The position numbers and the translations under genes were made by a program. A stretch of DNA of 61,403 nucleotides from assembly GCA_902567685.1 (NCBI GenBank), contig CACFNH010000005.1, forward strand, positions 1 to 61,403, read 5' to 3'. Source of the stretch: an uncultured Pelagibacteraceae bacterium (GTDB taxonomy: Bacteria > Pseudomonadota > Alphaproteobacteria > Pelagibacterales > Pelagibacteraceae). Shown here in pieces: positions 43,850-56,805 of this stretch (position 1 is the stretch's first letter; each line of letters opens with the position of its first letter). Under the pieces are notes generated by a model. That model searched no databases, was not told the origin of the DNA, and saw only the letters and a program-made list of their open reading frames with translations.

Positions 43850-46393
43850 TTATTTCTCTAAATCTTTAATATTAATAAAATTATTTGATATTTTATGATT
43901 TTTTGATTTAATTTCATTGAAGAAATTCCAGGCTAAAACTAAAATAGCGCTGTCGTAATTTTTAATATTAGATTTATCTTTAATTGGTATTTTTACACCT
44001 GGAATATATTTTCCATGTTTCAATTTATTGTCCTCAACTACAAAGTCAATTTCATCAGATACTCCAAAAAAATTTAAAGCAGTAGTTGCTTTAGCAGGCG
44101 AACCATAACCAATAATTTTTTTGTTCTCTTTTTTAAGTTTATTTAAATTTTTAATAACATTATCTCTAATTTTATAAACTTTTTTTCCAAATTCTTGATA
44201 AGTTTTAAACTTTTTAATTCCAAACTTTTCTTCTTCTTTGACTAAAGTTTTAACACTGTTTTCAATCTTAACTTTTTTATTTTTTTTAATATAAATTCTA
44301 AGAGATCCACCATGTGTTTCTATTTTTTCCGCCCTAAATATTTTAGCATTAAACTGATTAAAGAAATTAACCAAAGATGTTAATGACCAGTAATTATAAT
44401 GTTCGTGATAAATATTATCGAAAGTTAGATCCTTCAATGTGTTTAATAAATATTGGATTTCAATAATTATAGTTCCATTTTTGCTTAAAAGTTTAAACAT
44501 GCATTCAGTCATCTCTTTTAGTTTATCTGAATGGGCAAAAACATTGGATGCTAATATTAAATCAGCATTTTTTTTTATTTTATTCAAATTCTTTTTTTCA
44601 AGAAATCCGTTGTATGTTTTAATTTTATTCTTGTTTGCTAATTTTGCCAAATTTTTAGCTGGTTCTATTCCTAAAATTTTTTTAAAACCTTGATCTTTAA
44701 ATGGTTTTAAAGCAACACCATCGTTGCTGCCAATATCAATTATGTAAGAATTTTTTTTATTTAATTTAAACCCTTTAATATATTTGTTAGCAGCATTTAC
44801 AAAATGTTCTCTGAAAGACTTAGATGTTGATGAAGTATATAAATAATTGGAAAACATTTTTTTTGGGTCTACGGCAACTGACAATTGGCAATTATGACAT
44901 TTGCCACAATAATTTACTTCTAATGGATACAGTTCACACTTTTCATCTTTTTTACTTAGCAAGTTATTTGCAAGAGGTTGGTATCCTAAAGAAACAACTC
45001 TTTTTAAATCTTTGTTTCCACAAGATCTGCAATCAAATTTATAACAACTAAGCAACAAATCTCTTTCTTTGTCATCTACAAATATGTGTTTAATTGTATG
45101 TGTGATACCATAATTTTTGTGTTCTCTGTCTCCCCTCACTAAATTTAAAAAAGTTGTATCTTTAGTAAAAACCATTGTGTGTGCCACATTCGGTTTTATA
45201 ATTGACAACTGTCCTTCGTTAACTACTTGGGTAATTTTTGGGGATTTTGGATTTAGTATATCTTGAAAAATCTCTATGATTTGTCCTTTGGTGAATAAAC
45301 ATTTTTGCTCCTGTTGTGGATGGTAATGATTAGCTCTTATGCTTCCTTTTTTTGACTCGACCAAACCTATCATATTTATTGGTTCAGTTAATTCATGATT
45401 GCTGATCTTTCCTCTCGAGTCAATAAATTCATCAGCTCCATCTCTAACATGTTCTAAATCTTTAATTAAATTTTGTTTAGACCACTTGCCAATCATTTCT
45501 TTGATACTTTCATCTAGTGCATAAAGAAATTTGAAACCTTTATCTAAGATTTTCTTATTAGATAAAGAAAATCCTTCATTGGGAATAGGGTCATTAGTTT
45601 CTCTTAAAGTAACTTTTTGGTTATATTTTTTACAAATTTCAGCAACTTCTTTGACGGTAACTGTATCCTTAGTTAAATTAAATATATCAAAGGAAATATC
45701 ATCTCTTTCCTCCATATATTTAAAACATCTTGCCACATCTATAAGAGGAACTAAGCTTTTAACCTGCCTGCCACCAGAGAATAATTTTAAAGTTCCATCT
45801 TGAGAAGTAATTTTTGAGAAAAGGTTAGGCATTATATCAATACGAGCAGTATCTGATGAATACCCGTAAACAGAACCCAATCTCAAAACTACATAATTTT
45901 TACCAGACTTTTTTAATTGTTCTTCATTAATAGCCTTAGATTTTGCATAAGCAAGAACTGGTTTTGTTTCTTCATCTTCAAGTATATCATTTTTTACTTT
46001 CTCTAAACCCTCATAAACGACATGTGTGGATGGTAGAATAATTTTGCATTTATCACTTATTGCATCTAAAATATTTTGAGTTCCCTGTTCCCCTACTAAC
46101 ATAATTTTACTATCTATGGAGTCATTACTTTCATTTTTCACCCTGGGTACAGCAGTTATGCCAGCAAGATGATGAACGACATCAGCATCTTTACAATACT
46201 TATTTATTAAGTTTTTATCAGTTATGTCGCCTTGAATAAAATTTATATTCCAATTCCTAAGCTGATTAACTCTTTCAGAAATAAATCTGTTATCAATTAC
46301 TGTAATTTTGTTATTCCAACTTACACCGGAGTAAATTTTGCACAACTCAGTTCCTATATAACCAAGCCCTCCTGTTATTATAATTCTTTTCAT
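43850..46393 (-). CDS. Three-domain fusion: sugar-nucleotide epimerase/reductase, cupin, C-methyltransferase
   Basis: An 847-residue protein with three parts. Residues 1-310 are an extended-SDR NAD-dependent epimerase/dehydratase with GGLGYIG (8-14) and the Tyr149-xxx-Lys153 pair. Residues about 315-440 are a cupin of the sugar-epimerase-like type with RANHYHPQQEQ (His356, His358) and His405. Residues 450-847 are a deoxysugar C-methyltransferase (TylC3/NovU/TcaB9 type) with a zinc site (Cys455, Cys458, Cys496, Cys499), SAM motif IDIGSNDG (552-559), YHEHYNYW (662-669), HGGSLR (694-699) and GYGSPAKATTALNFFG. Together these could modify one nucleotide-linked sugar by reduction or epimerisation and C-methylation. 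The substrate is unknown. It is divergent from the glycosyltransferase genes across an 82-base gap. Confidence 0.85.
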   Translation of the reverse strand: MKRIIITGGLGYIGTELCKIYSGVSWNNKITVIDNRFISERVNQLRNWNINFIQGDITDKNLINKYCKDADVVHHLAGITAVPRVKNESNDSIDSKIMLVGEQGTQNILDAISDKCKIILPSTHVVYEGLEKVKNDILEDEETKPVLAYAKSKAINEEQLKKSGKNYVVLRLGSVYGYSSDTARIDIMPNLFSKITSQDGTLKLFSGGRQVKSLVPLIDVARCFKYMEERDDISFDIFNLTKDTVTVKEVAEICKKYNQKVTLRETNDPIPNEGFSLSNKKILDKGFKFLYALDESIKEMIGKWSKQNLIKDLEHVRDGADEFIDSRGKISNHELTEPINMIGLVESKKGSIRANHYHPQQEQKCLFTKGQIIEIFQDILNPKSPKITQVVNEGQLSIIKPNVAHTMVFTKDTTFLNLVRGDREHKNYGITHTIKHIFVDDKERDLLLSCYKFDCRSCGNKDLKRVVSLGYQPLANNLLSKKDEKCELYPLEVNYCGKCHNCQLSVAVDPKKMFSNYLYTSSTSKSFREHFVNAANKYIKGFKLNKKNSYIIDIGSNDGVALKPFKDQGFKKILGIEPAKNLAKLANKNKIKTYNGFLEKKNLNKIKKNADLILASNVFAHSDKLKEMTECMFKLLSKNGTIIIEIQYLLNTLKDLTFDNIYHEHYNYWSLTSLVNFFNQFNAKIFRAEKIETHGGSLRIYIKKNKKVKIENSVKTLVKEEEKFGIKKFKTYQEFGKKVYKIRDNVIKNLNKLKKENKKIIGYGSPAKATTALNFFGVSDEIDFVVEDNKLKHGKYIPGVKIPIKDKSNIKNYDSAILVLAWNFFNEIKSKNHKISNNFINIKDLEK

Positions 46394-46475: not shown

Positions 46476-47363
46476 ATGAACATTTTTGATTGTTTCATGT
46501 ATTTTGATGAAGATATGCTGCTAGACCTAAGGCTGCATATGCTAAACAAATATATAAAAAAATTTATTATTGTTGAGTCTACTTTTTTGCACAATGGAAA
46601 ACCAAAAAAGTTAAATTTTGACCTGAATAAATTTGATAAGTTTAAAGATAAAATAGAATACATTGTTGTAGACAGTCTTCCTAGTGATATTAAAAATATA
46701 AATCTAAAAGACTCTAAGAATATAAAAAATTCAAAAATATTAATAAATGCTCTTAAAAGAGAAAATTATCAGCGAAATATGATTTCTAAAGGATTCAAGG
46801 AAATAAATGATGATGACTTAATTATTATAAGTGACGTAGATGAAATACCTAATTTAAAAGATTTTAGGTACAAAAAAAAATTTAGTTTTTTTAAACAAAA
46901 AATGTTTTATTACAAATTTAACCTGGTCCATCCTAATATGACCTGGATGGGGTCAAGAGCTTGTAAAAAAAAATTTCTAATTTCTCCTCAATGGCTAAGG
47001 AATATTAAAGAAAGATCCTATCCTTTATGGAGAATTGATACTTTTTTTTCAAATAAAAAATATGGAAACATTGATTTTGTAAATAATGGAGGTTGGCATT
47101 TTACAAATATCAAAACCCCCCAAAATATTCACTTTAAACTTTCAAGCTTTCTTCACCATCTTGAATATGAAGAAAGCAATTTAGATATAAAAGATATGGA
47201 AAAAATGATAAAAGAAAAAAGAATATCTTACGATCATACTTTAGATAAAAAAGAAAATAAATGGAATGCTTCTATTTCTTTAAAAAAAGTTGAAGATAGA
47301 CATTTACCAGAATATTTAGTTAAAAATAAACATAAATATAAAATATGGTTTGAAAATGAGTGA
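46476..47363 (+). CDS. Family 17 glycosyltransferase, first copy
   Basis: A 295-residue protein of the GT17 family (relatives of beta-1,4-N-acetylglucosaminyltransferase III). I start at ATG 46476 (MNIFDCFMYFDEDMLLDLRL), the family N-terminus. The frame runs 51 bases further upstream without similarity. Visible motifs are FDEDMLLDLRL, KKFIIVEST, the Asp-rich donor site SDVDEIP (119-125), QKMFYYKFNL and NGGWHFTN. It is a soluble protein without signal peptide, probably cytoplasmic. It is a paralogue of the gene at 48069. The end overlaps the oxygenase-like gene by 8 bases. Confidence 0.85.
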   Translation: MNIFDCFMYFDEDMLLDLRLHMLNKYIKKFIIVESTFLHNGKPKKLNFDLNKFDKFKDKIEYIVVDSLPSDIKNINLKDSKNIKNSKILINALKRENYQRNMISKGFKEINDDDLIIISDVDEIPNLKDFRYKKKFSFFKQKMFYYKFNLVHPNMTWMGSRACKKKFLISPQWLRNIKERSYPLWRIDTFFSNKKYGNIDFVNNGGWHFTNIKTPQNIHFKLSSFLHHLEYEESNLDIKDMEKMIKEKRISYDHTLDKKENKWNASISLKKVEDRHLPEYLVKNKHKYKIWFENE

Positions 47364-48063
47364 ATTAATTGAAAAAATAAAAAGTTCAGAAGGATCTCCT
47401 AAAATTTTAAAAAATTTATATAGTGAGGAAGAAATAAATAGGTTTTTAAATTTGTATAAAATTTTACCAACTACAGTTCATAATAAAAAACAAAATGTTA
47501 TAAAAAAAAGATGGTTGCAAGGCTATGATAAGATATTAGAAAAGTTATTTTGCGAAAGACTAAAAAATGAAATAGGAAATTTTAAAATGGACAATCTTCA
47601 GACTGAAGATGGAAAAGATATTTTTGGTCTTATACAAGAAAGTCATTCTCCAATCGGTTTGCATGTTGACTCTGGTTTTAACATTAAAAACCAAATATAC
47701 AAACAAACCTTAATTCCTCTAACACCCGTTGGTAGTACAGTAATTTTCAAAAATAGATTTTATGGAAACTCTACAAGTTTTACACTAGACCCAAATGAAC
47801 TTAAAAAAAAAGATTTAGGGTATGGACAAAATAAAAGGTCTTCAGAACATTTAGAACTATATGGAAAAAAACCCTTTGATAAAAAAATACATGAAAAATA
47901 TTTATCCCACGAGAAAATTGAAAACTTAGCGGGTTTAGAGGTGGAGTTTATATATGAATGGGAATTGGGCTCTATGTTAATTTTTGACAGAACCCATTTA
48001 CATGCTTCATCCTCAAACATTCAAGGAAAAAAAATTGGTATAGCAACATTTACAAAAAAGTAG
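47356..48063 (+). CDS. Probable 2-oxoglutarate/Fe(II)-dependent oxygenase
   Basis: A 235-residue protein. The layout suggests a double-stranded beta-helix oxygenase: HxD at His103-Val-Asp105 (GLHVDSGF), a strand TLIPLTPVGSTVIF, a distal His in DRTHLHASSSN (214 or 216), and basic residues soon after (KKIGIATF, 225-226) that could hold 2-oxoglutarate. I infer the fold from this spacing and have no direct family match. The start at 47356 is an ATG, and a TTG six bases earlier is less likely. The gene is held between two GT17 genes on the same strand, so the substrate may be a sugar or a glycan acceptor. Confidence 0.6.
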   Translation: MSELIEKIKSSEGSPKILKNLYSEEEINRFLNLYKILPTTVHNKKQNVIKKRWLQGYDKILEKLFCERLKNEIGNFKMDNLQTEDGKDIFGLIQESHSPIGLHVDSGFNIKNQIYKQTLIPLTPVGSTVIFKNRFYGNSTSFTLDPNELKKKDLGYGQNKRSSEHLELYGKKPFDKKIHEKYLSHEKIENLAGLEVEFIYEWELGSMLIFDRTHLHASSSNIQGKKIGIATFTKK

Positions 48064-48068
48064 TTTGT

Positions 48069-48953
48069 ATGAAAATTTACGATTGTTTTCAATTTTTTGA
48101 TGAAGATATGATGTTGGATTTAAGATTAAACATCTTAGACAAATATGTTCATAAATTTGTGATAGTTGAAAACTTGTACATGCACAGTGGCAAAAAGAAA
48201 AATCAAAATTTCAGTATAAATAATTTCAAAAAATTCAAAAATAAAATTGAATATATATTAGTAGACAAACTGCCAGCTAAATTACACGACATAGACAAAG
48301 TAGAAGAAAGTCAAAAAGGCAACAGGATAATAGACAATACTTTAATGATTGAGCATAACCAAAGAAATAGAATTCAAGATGGTTTGATGGATGCATCAGA
48401 AGATGACTTAATAATCATAGGTGACATAGATGAAATACCTAACTTTGAAAACTTCAATTTTGAAATTAAAAAGAAATTAATCTTATTCAAACAAAAAATG
48501 TTCTACTATAAATTTAACTTAAAATATGGATCTAAACCATGGATTGGATCGAAGGGTTGCTTAAAAAAAAATTTAATTTCTCCTCAATGGCTTAGAGATG
48601 TAAAAGATAGAAAATACCCTTTATGGAGATTTGATATTCTATTTTCTAAAATGAAATTTAATAGTATTCAATATATAGATAATGGAGGATGGCATTTTAC
48701 AAATTTTAAAACTTTCGATGAATTAGAAAAAAAACTTAACAACTTTGGACACCACTTGGAATATAAACAGAGTGGTTTAAAATCTAATGACTTAAAAGAA
48801 ATGATAAAAAAGAATTTGGCAGTTTATGATTATGAAGCTGACATGAGAGAAAATAAGTGGTCTGGTAATAAAAAACTAGTCCAAGCAAGCTTAGATGAAT
48901 TGCCTAAATATGTTTTGGACAATAAAAATAAATATTCTGAATGGTTTAATTGA
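48069..48953 (+). CDS. Family 17 glycosyltransferase, second copy
   Basis: A 294-residue GT17 protein, clearly paralogous to the product of 46476-47363. Shared features are MKIYDCFQFFDEDMMLDLRL, HKFVIVEN, GDIDEIP (118-124), QKMFYYKFNL, SPQWLRDVKDRKYPLWRFD and NGGWHFTN. The two copies differ most in residues 70-95, which may set acceptor choice. It starts five bases after the oxygenase-like gene and ends four bases before the convergent lon stop. Confidence 0.85.
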   Translation: MKIYDCFQFFDEDMMLDLRLNILDKYVHKFVIVENLYMHSGKKKNQNFSINNFKKFKNKIEYILVDKLPAKLHDIDKVEESQKGNRIIDNTLMIEHNQRNRIQDGLMDASEDDLIIIGDIDEIPNFENFNFEIKKKLILFKQKMFYYKFNLKYGSKPWIGSKGCLKKNLISPQWLRDVKDRKYPLWRFDILFSKMKFNSIQYIDNGGWHFTNFKTFDELEKKLNNFGHHLEYKQSGLKSNDLKEMIKKNLAVYDYEADMRENKWSGNKKLVQASLDELPKYVLDNKNKYSEWFN

Positions 48954-48957
48954 TACT

Positions 48958-51348
48958 CTAGTGCGGGGAACTAGTAGTACCCGATTTTTGTTTTTCTTTA
49001 TTTGCTATCTGTTCTACTTCAACCCATTTAACTGGCTTTAAAGATTTTGTTAAAGCAATCTTCAATACTTCGTCTACATTTTTCACAGGTATGATGGTAA
49101 TATTTTTTTTTATAATTTTAGGAATTTCTGCCAAATCTTTTTGGTTTTCAAAAGGAATCAAAACTTTTTTGATGCCAGCTCTATGAGCAGCTAATAATTT
49201 TTCTTTTAAACCTCCAATTGGAAGAACTACTCCTCTAAGAGTTATTTCCCCTGTCATAGCTACATTTTTGTTTACAGGAATTTCTGTTATTGAAGAAATT
49301 ATTGAAGTAACCATAGCAATTCCTGCTGAAGGACCATCTTTTGGTGTTGCACCTTCAGGAACATGTATATGAAAATCTTTTTTATCAAATATAGGTGGTA
49401 TAATTCCATACTCTAGGCTTTTAGATCTAATGTAGGATTTTGCAGCCTTTACCGATTCTTGCATAACCTCCCCTAGTTTACCAGTAATTTGCATTTTCCC
49501 TTTACCAGACATTATTACTGACTCTATTTTTAAAATTTCTCCCCCAACTTCAGTCCATGCTAAGCCCGTAACAACTCCTACTCTATTTTGCTCTTCTACT
49601 TCACCATATTTAAATTTTTGAACTCCTAGATAGTTTGTAAGTTCTTTTTCTTTTATAGGATTACTAACTTTTTCTTTAGCATCTATTTTTTTTACAGTTT
49701 TTCTTGCTATTTTCGATATTTCTCTTTCTAAATTTCTTACTCCAGCTTCTCTGGTATAATTTCTTATTATTTTTCTATTAACCTTTTCTTCAATACCCCA
49801 TTCATCTTTTTTTAATCCTGCATTCTCTCTTTGTTTAGGTATCAAATACTTTTGAGATATATTTACTTTTTCATCTTCGGTGTAACCTGGAAGCCTTATT
49901 AGTTCCATTCTATCTAGCAAAGGCGGTAATATATTTAAAGTGTTTGCAGTAGTTACAAACATTACATCAGATAAATCATAATCTACTTCTAGGTAATGAT
50001 CATTAAATTCTTTATTCTGTTCAGGGTCAAGAGCTTCTAATAATGCTGAGGAAGGATCTCCTCTATAGTCATTACCTACTTTGTCTATCTCATCTAATAA
50101 AAATAACGGATTTTTAGTTCCAGCTTTTTTCATCATCTGTATTATCTTGCCAGGCAAAGATCCTATATAAGTTCTTCTATGACCTCTAATTTCAGCCTCA
50201 TCTCTTGTTCCTCCTAAAGAAATTCTTACAAATTTTCTTCCTGTTGCTCTGGCTATTGATTTACCAAGTGAAGTTTTTCCAACTCCGGGTGGGCCAACTA
50301 AGCAAAGTATAGGACCTTTCATTTTTTCCGTTCTTTTTTGTACTGCCAAAAATTCAATTATTCTTTCTTTTACTTTTTCTAAACCAAAATGATCCTCGTC
50401 TAAAATTTTTTGGGCATTTTTTAAATCACTATTAATTTTGCTTTTATTACTCCAAGGGAGTTCAGTCATCCAATCTAAATAATTTCTTACAACTGTTGCT
50501 TCTGCTGACATAGGACTCATAGATTTCAGCTTTTTAAGTTCTGAAAGACATTTTTCTTGAACTAATTTGGGCATTTTGGCTTTAGCTATAGATTTAGTTA
50601 AATTTGATACTTCATCTTTTCCTTCGTCTATTTCTCCAAGTTCTTTTTGGATAGCTTTAAGTTGTTCGTTTAAATAATATTCTCTTTGGGTTTTCTCCAT
50701 TTGATTTTTAACCCTTCCTCTAATTTTCTTTTCAACAGAAACAACGCTTGTTTCTTTTTCTATTAACTCATATATTTTTTCTAGTCTTTTTCTTACGTCT
50801 GATAATTCAAGAAGTTCCTGTTTTTGAAAAATCTCTAAATTTAAATTAGAAGCAATATTGTCTGCTATTTCACTGCTGTCTTTTAATTTCTTTATACTCT
50901 CTACTGACTCTGACAAATCTCTTTTGTTTAAAATCAATAATTTCTCAAATCTTTTAACAAGAGATAAAGCATAAGTATCTGAATCTTTATTTCTATTTGA
51001 CTCTTCTATTTTCTCTACATCGCAGCTTAAATAATCTTCATCTTTATTTTGATAAATCTCAAGTATTTTCACTCTATTGATTCCTTCTACTAAAACTTTC
51101 ACAGTTCCATCTGGTAGCTTAAGTAATTGAAGAACTTTGCTGAGACAGCCATGACTGTAAATATCTTTGTCATTTGGATCATCAATCTCAGAATTTTTTT
51201 GTGCAGAGAGAACTATTGATTTGTCTGTTTTCATGACTTCTTGTAATGCTTTAATCGATTTTTCTCTTCCTACAAAAAGAGGAACGACCATAGAAGGAAA
51301 GATAACTATGTCTCTTAAAGGGAGTAAGGGTTTTTTGTTTATAGCCAT
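48958..51348 (-). CDS. lon: ATP-dependent protease Lon
   Basis: Degrades misfolded and regulatory proteins in the cytoplasm. I take the ATG at 51348 ([18 protein letters not shown]), not the TTG six bases upstream. The 796-residue protein has the N-terminal substrate domain, Walker [10 protein letters not shown], Walker [13 protein letters not shown], and the Ser-Lys protease dyad in [12 protein letters not shown] and [17 protein letters not shown]. It follows clpX by 52 bases. hupB, which usually lies next to lon in alphaproteobacteria, is absent and the GT17 island occupies the site. Confidence 0.97.
48964..48990 (+). terminator. Possible terminator of the glycosyltransferase operon, inside the lon 3' end
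   Basis: On the plus strand CGGG (48964-48967) and CCCG (48980-48983) pair around an 11-12 base loop holding the palindrome ACTAGT, and ATTTTTG follows. A second option is CTAGT/ACTAG at 48958-48974. The stem is short, so it is a weak candidate. It would lie within the lon coding sequence because the two genes converge with almost no gap. Confidence 0.3.
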
Positions 51349-51400
51349 AATCAATTTATATGGTAATTAACATGAAAATATCAAGAAACTTATTTAGAAA

Positions 51401-54820: not shown

Positions 54821-55894
54821 TTATATATCAATTTCCTTTTTCGCGAAACTATAAACTCTTAAATAAATTATTAAATAAACAATCAATAGAAAGAAAAACC
54901 AATATCTACAAACAAAAGGATTTTCTTTAAAGAAAATTCCTGGAAAAATTAAAACAAAATAAACTAGGTTAACAACTACTGAGTTGAGATAGTTACAATC
55001 CGTAAATTTTTTTGTTTTTTCTAAACATTTGAATGATAGCATGTGTAAATGATTGCTGTCTGGACTAAGAGGTGATTTTTTTAAATATATTTTTCTAAAA
55101 AAAGAAAAAAAGACCTCAAAAAACAAATAAAACAAAAGTATACAAAAGAAAAAAGAGGAAATTTCTGGATTTAAATTATTAGTCTCAATAATATTTAAAG
55201 CTATTAATGAACCAAATAAATAGGACCCGCTGTCTCCTAAAAAAATCTTTGCCTTCGGAAAATTGAATAATAAAAAAGAAAAAAATATTGCGATTTGACC
55301 AGTAATAATCAAAGCGAGTTCCATGTTTTGACTGTTAATGTTAATAAGTAAAAGTATGAAGTTTATTAATATTAAATGTATTACAAGCAGACCATTAAAA
55401 CCGTCTATTAAATTAGCTCCATTAATTACAAATAAAAAACATAACAAAATAAATATAATTTCAAAAAATCTGTTTGCCATCCATGATTTTACAAAGCTGA
55501 TATCTATATTGTCTATGTTAATGGAAAGAAAGATTATACTTAAAGACAAAGCTATGATCATAAAAATTAATCTAATATTTGGATTAGTCTTCAGCTTTAT
55601 ATCTTCTAAAAAACCTATTGAAAAAAAAATTATAGATAAAAATAAATAATCATTAAGAACTCGACCAAACAAAAATTGATAAATTAATATAAAAAACATT
55701 ATAGATATAAATGTTGCCAGTCCGCCACTTCTGGGTACCGGTTCTTTATGATAAGCTTGGGGTTTCTCAAAATCTTGATCCAATAAAACCCCATTACCAA
55801 TTTTACTTGAAATTTTTTGTACAATTAGAGTTACAAAAAAACTTACTAAAGTTATGATTGACAAAAAACTTTGTGTCGCTTGTTCTGAAAACAT
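54821..55894 (-). CDS. Polyprenyl-phosphate sugar-1-phosphate transferase (WecA/MraY family)
   Basis: A 357-residue membrane protein with about 10 hydrophobic segments. Family motifs are PVPRSGGLATF, GFLEDIK (with the Asp pair region), NGANLIDGFNGL, FLGDSGSYLFGS and the cytoplasmic SPDSNHLHML. It should move a HexNAc-1-phosphate from UDP-sugar to undecaprenyl phosphate, starting O-antigen or another surface polymer. It is more like WecA than MraY because it stands outside a cell-wall cluster and has the His-rich HLHML ending. It overlaps the EamA gene by one base. Confidence 0.8.
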   Translation of the reverse strand: MFSEQATQSFLSIITLVSFFVTLIVQKISSKIGNGVLLDQDFEKPQAYHKEPVPRSGGLATFISIMFFILIYQFLFGRVLNDYLFLSIIFFSIGFLEDIKLKTNPNIRLIFMIIALSLSIIFLSINIDNIDISFVKSWMANRFFEIIFILLCFLFVINGANLIDGFNGLLVIHLILINFILLLININSQNMELALIITGQIAIFFSFLLFNFPKAKIFLGDSGSYLFGSLIALNIIETNNLNPEISSFFFCILLFYLFFEVFFSFFRKIYLKKSPLSPDSNHLHMLSFKCLEKTKKFTDCNYLNSVVVNLVYFVLIFPGIFFKENPFVCRYWFFFLLIVYLIIYLRVYSFAKKEIDI

Positions 55895-56805
55895 TATTTT
55901 CTTACCAATTTATCATTTTTTTTTACAATAAATATACCTGTTATTATTATAATTAATGAAACCAATACTCTCCAGGTAATTTGTTCATCCATAATTAAAT
56001 ACCCAAAAAATACACCAAATAAAGGTATTAGATAAGCAACTTGTGTTTGAAAAACTAGGCCAACTTTTGTCAATAAGTGAAATCTTAACGCCCAAGCAAA
56101 GCCTGTGGAAACAACTCCTAAATAAATCAAAGCAGTTGTTGACTCGATAGAAGGATTTAAATTTATCCAAGGTTTTTGAAATAAACAAAAAGGAAAAAGG
56201 AAAATCAGAGACCAAATAATTGTTGAAGTAGTAACGTTTTCATTTCCCTTATTTTTTAAAAATTTCAAAGTTAGTATTCCACCAATAACATAAAAAGTAG
56301 AACCACATAAAATTATTAGTGCATAAATAAAATTGCTTTCAGTTATTACTAATTTGTCAAAAAATAAAAAGACTACACCAATAAAACCTAAAATAACCCC
56401 GAGTAATTTATAAAAGTTTAATTTTTCATTTTTGGTAAAAAAATGCGCCAGTATTGTTCCGCTTAAAGGTGTAGTGCTCATTAATATTGCTGCTAAATAA
56501 CTTTGAACTTTGTTTGTACCATAAGCAATAAGTAAAAAAGGGATAACAATGTTACAAAGCCCTACAAGAGCGTACATTTTCCAATCTCTAGAGAATGCCA
56601 TTATCTTTATATTTTTGTAAGAACAGTAAAAAGCAAGAGCTATTAAAGCAAAAAAAACTCTAACAAAGACTAATGTTATAGTGTCGTACGTATAGGTTGC
56701 TATTTTAATATTAAAAAAGGCTGACCCCCAAATTGCTGCAAGCAAGATTAATAATAAAATGTCTGTAGTTTTAGCTTCTTTTTTCATTTCGAGCCCAGAT
56801 TGCAT
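55894..56805 (-). CDS. EamA/DMT-family membrane transporter
   Basis: A 303-residue protein with ten hydrophobic segments made of two EamA repeats (AAIWGSAFFNIKIATYTYDT near the N-terminus; LIYLGVVSTGFAWALRFHLL in the second half). Members export amino acids or small metabolites, and the substrate here is unknown. The start may be 56805 or the in-frame ATG at 56787 (MKKEAKTTD); neither has a strong ribosome-binding site. It is divergent from glnA across 104 bases. Confidence 0.85.
   Translation of the reverse strand: MQSGLEMKKEAKTTDILLLILLAAIWGSAFFNIKIATYTYDTITLVFVRVFFALIALAFYCSYKNIKIMAFSRDWKMYALVGLCNIVIPFLLIAYGTNKVQSYLAAILMSTTPLSGTILAHFFTKNEKLNFYKLLGVILGFIGVVFLFFDKLVITESNFIYALIILCGSTFYVIGGILTLKFLKNKGNENVTTSTIIWSLIFLFPFCLFQKPWINLNPSIESTTALIYLGVVSTGFAWALRFHLLTKVGLVFQTQVAYLIPLFGVFFGYLIMDEQITWRVLVSLIIIITGIFIVKKNDKLVRK

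Follow-up and report, generated by a model that had tools for sequence, protein, structure and literature searches.

The type member of glycosyltransferase family 17 (GT17), MGAT3, is a GlcNAc transferase of N-glycans that acts on core mannose. The literature that we searched held no paper joining GT17 and SAR11 and, judged by title, none on a bacterial GT17 enzyme. A described oxygenase of glycan assembly is KdoO, presented in the cited passages as an Fe(II)/2-oxoglutarate (2OG) Kdo 3-hydroxylase acting within the assembly of the LPS core (PMC8533242). For SAR11, passages on HVR2 describe surface glycan genes in about 50 kb between rRNA genes (PMC4053759); surface structures are discussed in parts of that paper and of another as targets of phage selection (PMC4053759, PMC7029224), and glycan-bound phosphonates are discussed in passages of a third (PMC8931226). 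Here we describe an oxygenase gene (MID) that is paired with GT17 genes in Pelagibacterales. We give a probability of about 0.68 to the reading that MID encodes an Fe(II)/2OG oxygenase that works with the adjacent GT17, in an exchangeable module that puts a modified sugar on a glycan, most likely at the cell surface.

The window, that is, the whole 61,403-nucleotide stretch of DNA analysed, comes from a draft genome of an uncultured Pelagibacteraceae bacterium (990 kb, 82% complete) with one copy of MID. An initial annotation, made from the sequence alone, had described two GT17 genes with shared DVDEIP/DIDEIP and NGGWHFTN motifs around a 235-residue gene, the three overlapping or abutting. 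These observations stand: the open reading frames are present, both outer proteins pass the PF04724 cut-off (26 bits) and carry the motifs, and an 8-base overlap between GT17A and MID is followed by a 5-base spacing before GT17B, all on the forward strand (Table 1). We start all three genes at ATG, the mechanical open reading frames beginning at GTG 46425 (GT17A) and TTG 47350 (MID). The set is flanked by a convergent lon and by a divergent gene for a fusion protein, which relatives retain beside their own lon gene with 66–82% identity.

Table 1. Features of the lon locus and of the neighbouring tig region, in positions of the window
Feature	Position	Strand	Basis or remark
847-aa fusion of NAD-epimerase, cupin-like and C-methyltransferase parts, left border of lon site	43850..46393	-	PF08421/PF08484 (C-methyltransferase)
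GT17A, 295 aa, glycosyltransferase family 17, kind resident at lon locus	46476..47363	+	PF04724 54.4 bits, model, tree
MID, 235 aa, very probable 2OG-Fe(II) oxygenase, unclassified family	47356..48063	+	Model, motif, GT17 linkage
H103-V104-D105 codons, HxD metal motif of MID	47662..47670	+	Counted from ATG 47356
H216 codon, putative third metal ligand of MID	48001..48003	+	Invariant 58/58
K226 codon, probable 2OG-binding lysine of MID	48031..48033	+	Invariant 58/58, H216+10
GT17B, 294 aa, glycosyltransferase family 17, MID-linked subclade	48069..48953	+	PF04724 48.7 bits; SH-aLRT 98
lon, right border of site	48958..51354	-	PF05362, PF02190
Glycos_transf_4 gene (PF00953)	54824-55894	-	Adjoins EamA transporter gene, beside tig
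EamA transporter gene	55897-56805	-	Adjoins Glycos_transf_4 gene, beside tig

The middle protein had been suspected of being a 2-oxoglutarate oxygenase on the strength of an HxD...H arrangement, with structure prediction of a jelly-roll metal site proposed as the check. The prediction returned such a fold rather than one lacking the metal jelly roll. The model, for which 58 members were used, reaches a mean pLDDT of 90.8; every one of the 50 PDB matches listed by Foldseek is a 2OG-type enzyme (best E 8.5e-07), and structure comparison with VIA gives Z up to 13.4 (rmsd 3.1, 162 aligned). In the alignment (58 of 61 distinct sequences, without the fragment L051, the 25% homologue L057 and the cut L012), H103 is present in 57 of 58 members, and D105, H216 and K226 are each present in all 58. 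The exception is the copy of locus L055 (7324-8022, reverse strand), in which Gln replaces the first metal His and which is possibly inactive or altered. K226, a basic residue ten positions after H216, is where 2OG binding is expected and is the probable ligand of the cosubstrate. With the fold, the HxD...H triad and the basic residue at His+10 of the 2OG-Fe(II) oxygenase superfamily, MID is very probably such an oxygenase, as judged from model and motif together, and it is a new family inside that known superfamily. In Pfam and NCBIfam, no family exceeded its curated cut-off for MID, and the window protein matched no Pfam family at E up to 1; the named Pfam 2OG-oxygenase families gave the 58 members weak matches only (WelO5, 0.021 in two members; Asp_Arg_Hydrox, 0.025 in one). 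A search of PDB sequences with MID likewise returned no significant match.

The fold names no substrate, because the matches that fall within a single Z unit of each other use amino acids, proteins or natural products as substrates. VIA ranks the epimerase SnoN first, prolyl hydroxylases tie at the same Z, and GriE, WelO5 and the carbocyclase SnoK fall in the same interval; we therefore rejected naming a substrate from these matches. The positions of SnoN, SnoK and the halogenase WelO5 could also be taken to mean that MID is a sugar-pathway 2OG enzyme that epimerises, desaturates, cyclises or halogenates rather than hydroxylates, which we consider improbable. WelO5-type halogenases are not known to carry the Asp of this metal motif; halogenation by MID is unlikely because all 58 members keep Asp105, whereas epimerisation or cyclisation may still apply. 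MID may well carry out plain hydroxylation.

The two neighbours of MID are both GT17 proteins and are 51% identical (150/294). GT17A is modelled as a GT-A type fold (pLDDT 94.9), with a best Foldseek match to GlcAT-P (E 2e-4) and VIA Z up to 11.2, at which nucleotidyltransferases of related fold are tied. D120 and D122 of the DxD motif are invariant in the 57 aligned GT17 rows (57 of 91 sequences), GT17B included. In a GT17 tree of 92 rows, made by a quick method, GT17A groups with GT17s that reside at the lon locus, and GT17B is placed in a separate five-row subclade (SH-aLRT 98), all rows of which lie beside MID in the lon region. GT17B is nearer to the GT17s that partner the oxygenase in four other genomes (57–66% identity) than to GT17A. 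The description of the pair as tandem paralogues thus stands as regards a common family and falls as regards close kinship: the two are in different subclades and are not each other's nearest relatives.

MID has two main sites in the mapped loci. The usual one, site 2, has the order tsaC, ABC ATPase, ABC-2 permease, MID, often an FkbM-type methyltransferase gene, GT17C, rluD and then rpoH; the names rpoH, purA, thiD, glmM, dxs, ispA and clpX at these loci are what we take the genes to be. Between GT17C and rluD we also saw a second, different 2OG oxygenase (PF13640; L063 9213-10058, reverse strand) and an extra gene of 271–274 aa with no Pfam family (L050 5837-6649; L063 10099-10920). Of the genomes with MID in the lon region, described next, the window genome and three of the other four (G445, G457 and G468) have a GT17 without MID at site 2; the ABC permease of site 2 was not found in the draft of the remaining one, G495. 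Site 1 is the lon locus, which carries one or two GT17s, and MID lies at or near it in at least five genomes, namely those of the window, L088, L089, L091 and L013 (the latter being locus L090). In L013, the MID–GT17B set lies between Glycos_transf_4 and trigger-factor genes, right beside a relative of the Glycos_transf_4 gene of the window.

GT17s occur at all 24 mapped sites having both the fusion gene and lon, a figure partly due to selection, as similarity to GT17A was the criterion for collecting GT17s of the lon locus. GT17A looks like the resident of the lon locus, and MID with GT17B looks like an inserted pair; we infer that this was the direction of the move. The lon site has been rearranged in several ways, because two GT17s stand there in opposite orientation in L102, L103 and L104. 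Elsewhere, at another site, L100 and L101 (genomes G355 and G302) have a tandem GT17 pair without MID.

These arrangements bear on the proposal that the three window genes form a dedicated pathway, with tandemly duplicated GT17s adding successive sugars and the oxygenase working at the step in between. As this proposal would have it, the genes are probably co-transcribed in the window, since they share a strand and either overlap or are separated by 5 bases. However, a survey of neighbourhoods found no second case of the triplet: no other mapped MID locus has a GT17 on both sides, a few of these loci being cut by contig ends. The order near lon also varies (MID–GT17B–GT17A in L088 and L089, GT17B–MID in L091 and MID–GT17B in L013), the two GT17s belong to different subclades, and at many lon sites a GT17A-like gene is present and MID is absent. 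We therefore set aside both the triplet as a unit and sequential addition by the tandem GT17s, and hold the three-enzyme pathway to be quite unlikely.

What is conserved is the pair. Counting GT17s among the matches listed, one lies downstream of MID on the same strand in 105 of 109 copies, which agrees with the earlier view that oxygenase and GT17 belong together. In 61 copies it follows directly (0–147 bases between matched stretches), and in 44 after 949–969 bases, which leaves room for one gene and holds an FkbM-type methyltransferase where examined; such a gene is present in 22 of 49 distinct loci compared (with a Pfam assignment, PF05050, for one). Two of the four copies without a downstream GT17 are at contig ends (G469, locus L119; G034-C21, locus L086), a third (G468, locus L091) lies downstream of its GT17, and the fourth is in G465. 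Conversely, among the matches listed, MID is upstream of 85 of the 88 type 1 GT17s, defined by at least 57% identity to the site-2 copy of L009. The other three belong to G438, G465 and G469, the last at base 1 of a different contig. Less similar GT17 rows, a mix of site-2 genes and some others, have MID upstream in 16 of 55 and lack it in 39 of 55, again among the matches listed. These counts used 143 of the 150 GT17 rows listed, the last seven, at least four of them of the GT17A type, being left out. Ten of the 39 rows without MID may lie at other sites, because their genomes have another listed row that is paired with MID.

The oxygenase and GT17 are thus a conserved unit, and the GT17 partners of MID come from two distinct subclades, at two places in the genome. 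It could nevertheless be argued that MID acts outside any sugar pathway, for example on free amino acids or on a residue of some protein, and neighbours GT17 only through a shared preference for variable regions. Prolyl and amino-acid hydroxylases do share the top of the fold matches with the other enzymes, but linkage in 105 of 109 copies across two sites and two subclades, together with the sugar-gene surroundings of distant homologues described below, makes this reading improbable, if slightly less so than the three-enzyme pathway. The association of MID with GT17 is real and conserved, and we did not find it described in the literature searched, where we came upon no paper presenting an oxygenase(–FkbM)–GT17 module and where 2OG-Fe enzymes, glycosyltransferases and Pelagibacter are mentioned together chiefly in papers on phages.

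MID is not a chance open reading frame, because 108 of the 169 genomes searched in the window's Pelagibacterales genus hold a relative of it. At the level of the order (397 genomes), MID was found in 42 genomes and GT17 in 219. An alignment-based search of 289 genomes of the class and 299 of the phylum, both thin samples, matched only the window's own genome in each; one contig scan, with a single MID protein as query, was suited to close relatives only. Within the genomes searched, MID is confined to Pelagibacterales. Named carriers of its relatives are Pelagibacteraceae or Pelagibacterales, and one labelled 'IIa.A' would, from that label, belong to SAR11 clade II. Pattern-based scans of IMG/VR and a tblastn search of INPHARED phages found no relatives, and we rejected a phage origin of MID on these grounds; the best viral structure match is A0A1B1ITW5 (E 5.8e-11, 18% identity).

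Two distant homologues from outside the genus are found in sugar clusters. L056 (approximately 43% identity) is encoded on the other strand from the sugar genes around it, which are a GT15-like gene and a second glycosyltransferase gene, with an epimerase and a DegT-type aminotransferase nearby. L057 (25% identity, E 3e-21) lies between Glycos_transf_1 and methyltransferase genes on the same strand. These surroundings count in favour of a sugar-pathway role for MID.

Within fixed flanks, the module changes its type. On a tree of the three linked genes purA, rpoH and thiD (quick method; 64 of 67 rows, identical ones dropped), module type, scored as type 1 with MID, type 2 with MID or type 2 without MID, needs at least 14 changes where the minimum is two, and well supported branches alone force five changes for type 1 with MID. 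The sample is enriched for loci without MID, 15 having been picked from genomes that either lack the gene or carry it close to lon. The count used a 56% cut; at the 57% cut applied in the type 1 correlation below, L067 and L075 (56.9%) were counted as type 2, although the GT17 tree puts both with type 1. Across 49 loci, distances of MID and GT17C correlate at 0.74, those of MID and its two adjacent flanks at 0.26 and 0.19, and the partial correlation, also 0.74, was reached by none of 999 permutations. For type 1 alone (41 loci), MID correlates at 0.43 with GT17C, 0.53 with the ABC permease and 0.38 with the other flank, with a partial correlation of 0.29 that is above 999 of 999 permutations. 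The strong MID–GT17C signal therefore mostly reflects the deep split between types, because it drops within type 1; exchange of the pair is clear for deep types and weak within one type. In a MID tree (59 of the 61 distinct sequences, L051 and L057 omitted), the five lon-region copies fall in three places, so that more than one move of MID to the lon region is likely, although well supported branches force only one change.

Under our preferred reading of an oxygenase paired with a GT17, the module would consist of MID and GT17, in many genomes with the FkbM-type methyltransferase between them. Against this reading weigh the prolyl hydroxylases among the tied structure matches, the Gln of L055, the weaker correlation within type 1, the 39 less similar GT17 rows that lack MID upstream, and the gene arrangements of L091 and L056. 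The likeliest chemistry is that MID hydroxylates a sugar, or a glycolipid bearing that sugar, either before or after transfer by GT17, so that its product would be used by the neighbouring GT17 or its substrate would be made by it. The new hydroxyl might then be methylated by FkbM or serve as an acceptor. At the lon locus of the window, the MID–GT17B pair would have been set beside a resident GT17A. We tentatively extend this to a bolder version, which we think clearly more likely wrong than right: a new 2OG-oxygenase family would hydroxylate a sugar for methylation by FkbM or for glycosylation by a dedicated GT17, in modules of two or three genes that are swapped among SAR11 at several small fixed sites and act as phage-selected, serotype-like surface switches. 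That phages drive the MID–GT17 module is our own inference.

Being small, changing repeatedly and including an unclassified oxygenase, the module would provide a defined handle on the SAR11 surface, and through it bacterial GT17 enzymes might be assigned their first function. Its closest relatives among known systems each match it in part. MID shares the fold, triad and His+10 residue of the 2OG-Fe(II) oxygenase superfamily, and differs from described members in matching no curated family and no PDB sequence significantly and in being restricted, in the genomes searched, to Pelagibacterales. The window GT17s share with MGAT3 the Pfam match (PF04724) and the DxD motif, with a GT-A type model for GT17A, and differ in being bacterial, about 295 aa in length and beside an oxygenase. 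KdoO provides a precedent for a 2OG oxygenase inside glycan assembly, a likeness to MID that is one of description; unlike MID, it has no GT17 partner named in the cited passages (PMC8533242). HVR2 of SAR11, as described in part of its source, likewise has variable glycosyltransferase genes in fixed flanks (PMC4053759), whereas the modules described here comprise one to three genes and lie beside lon, beside tig, and between the ABC transporter and rluD.
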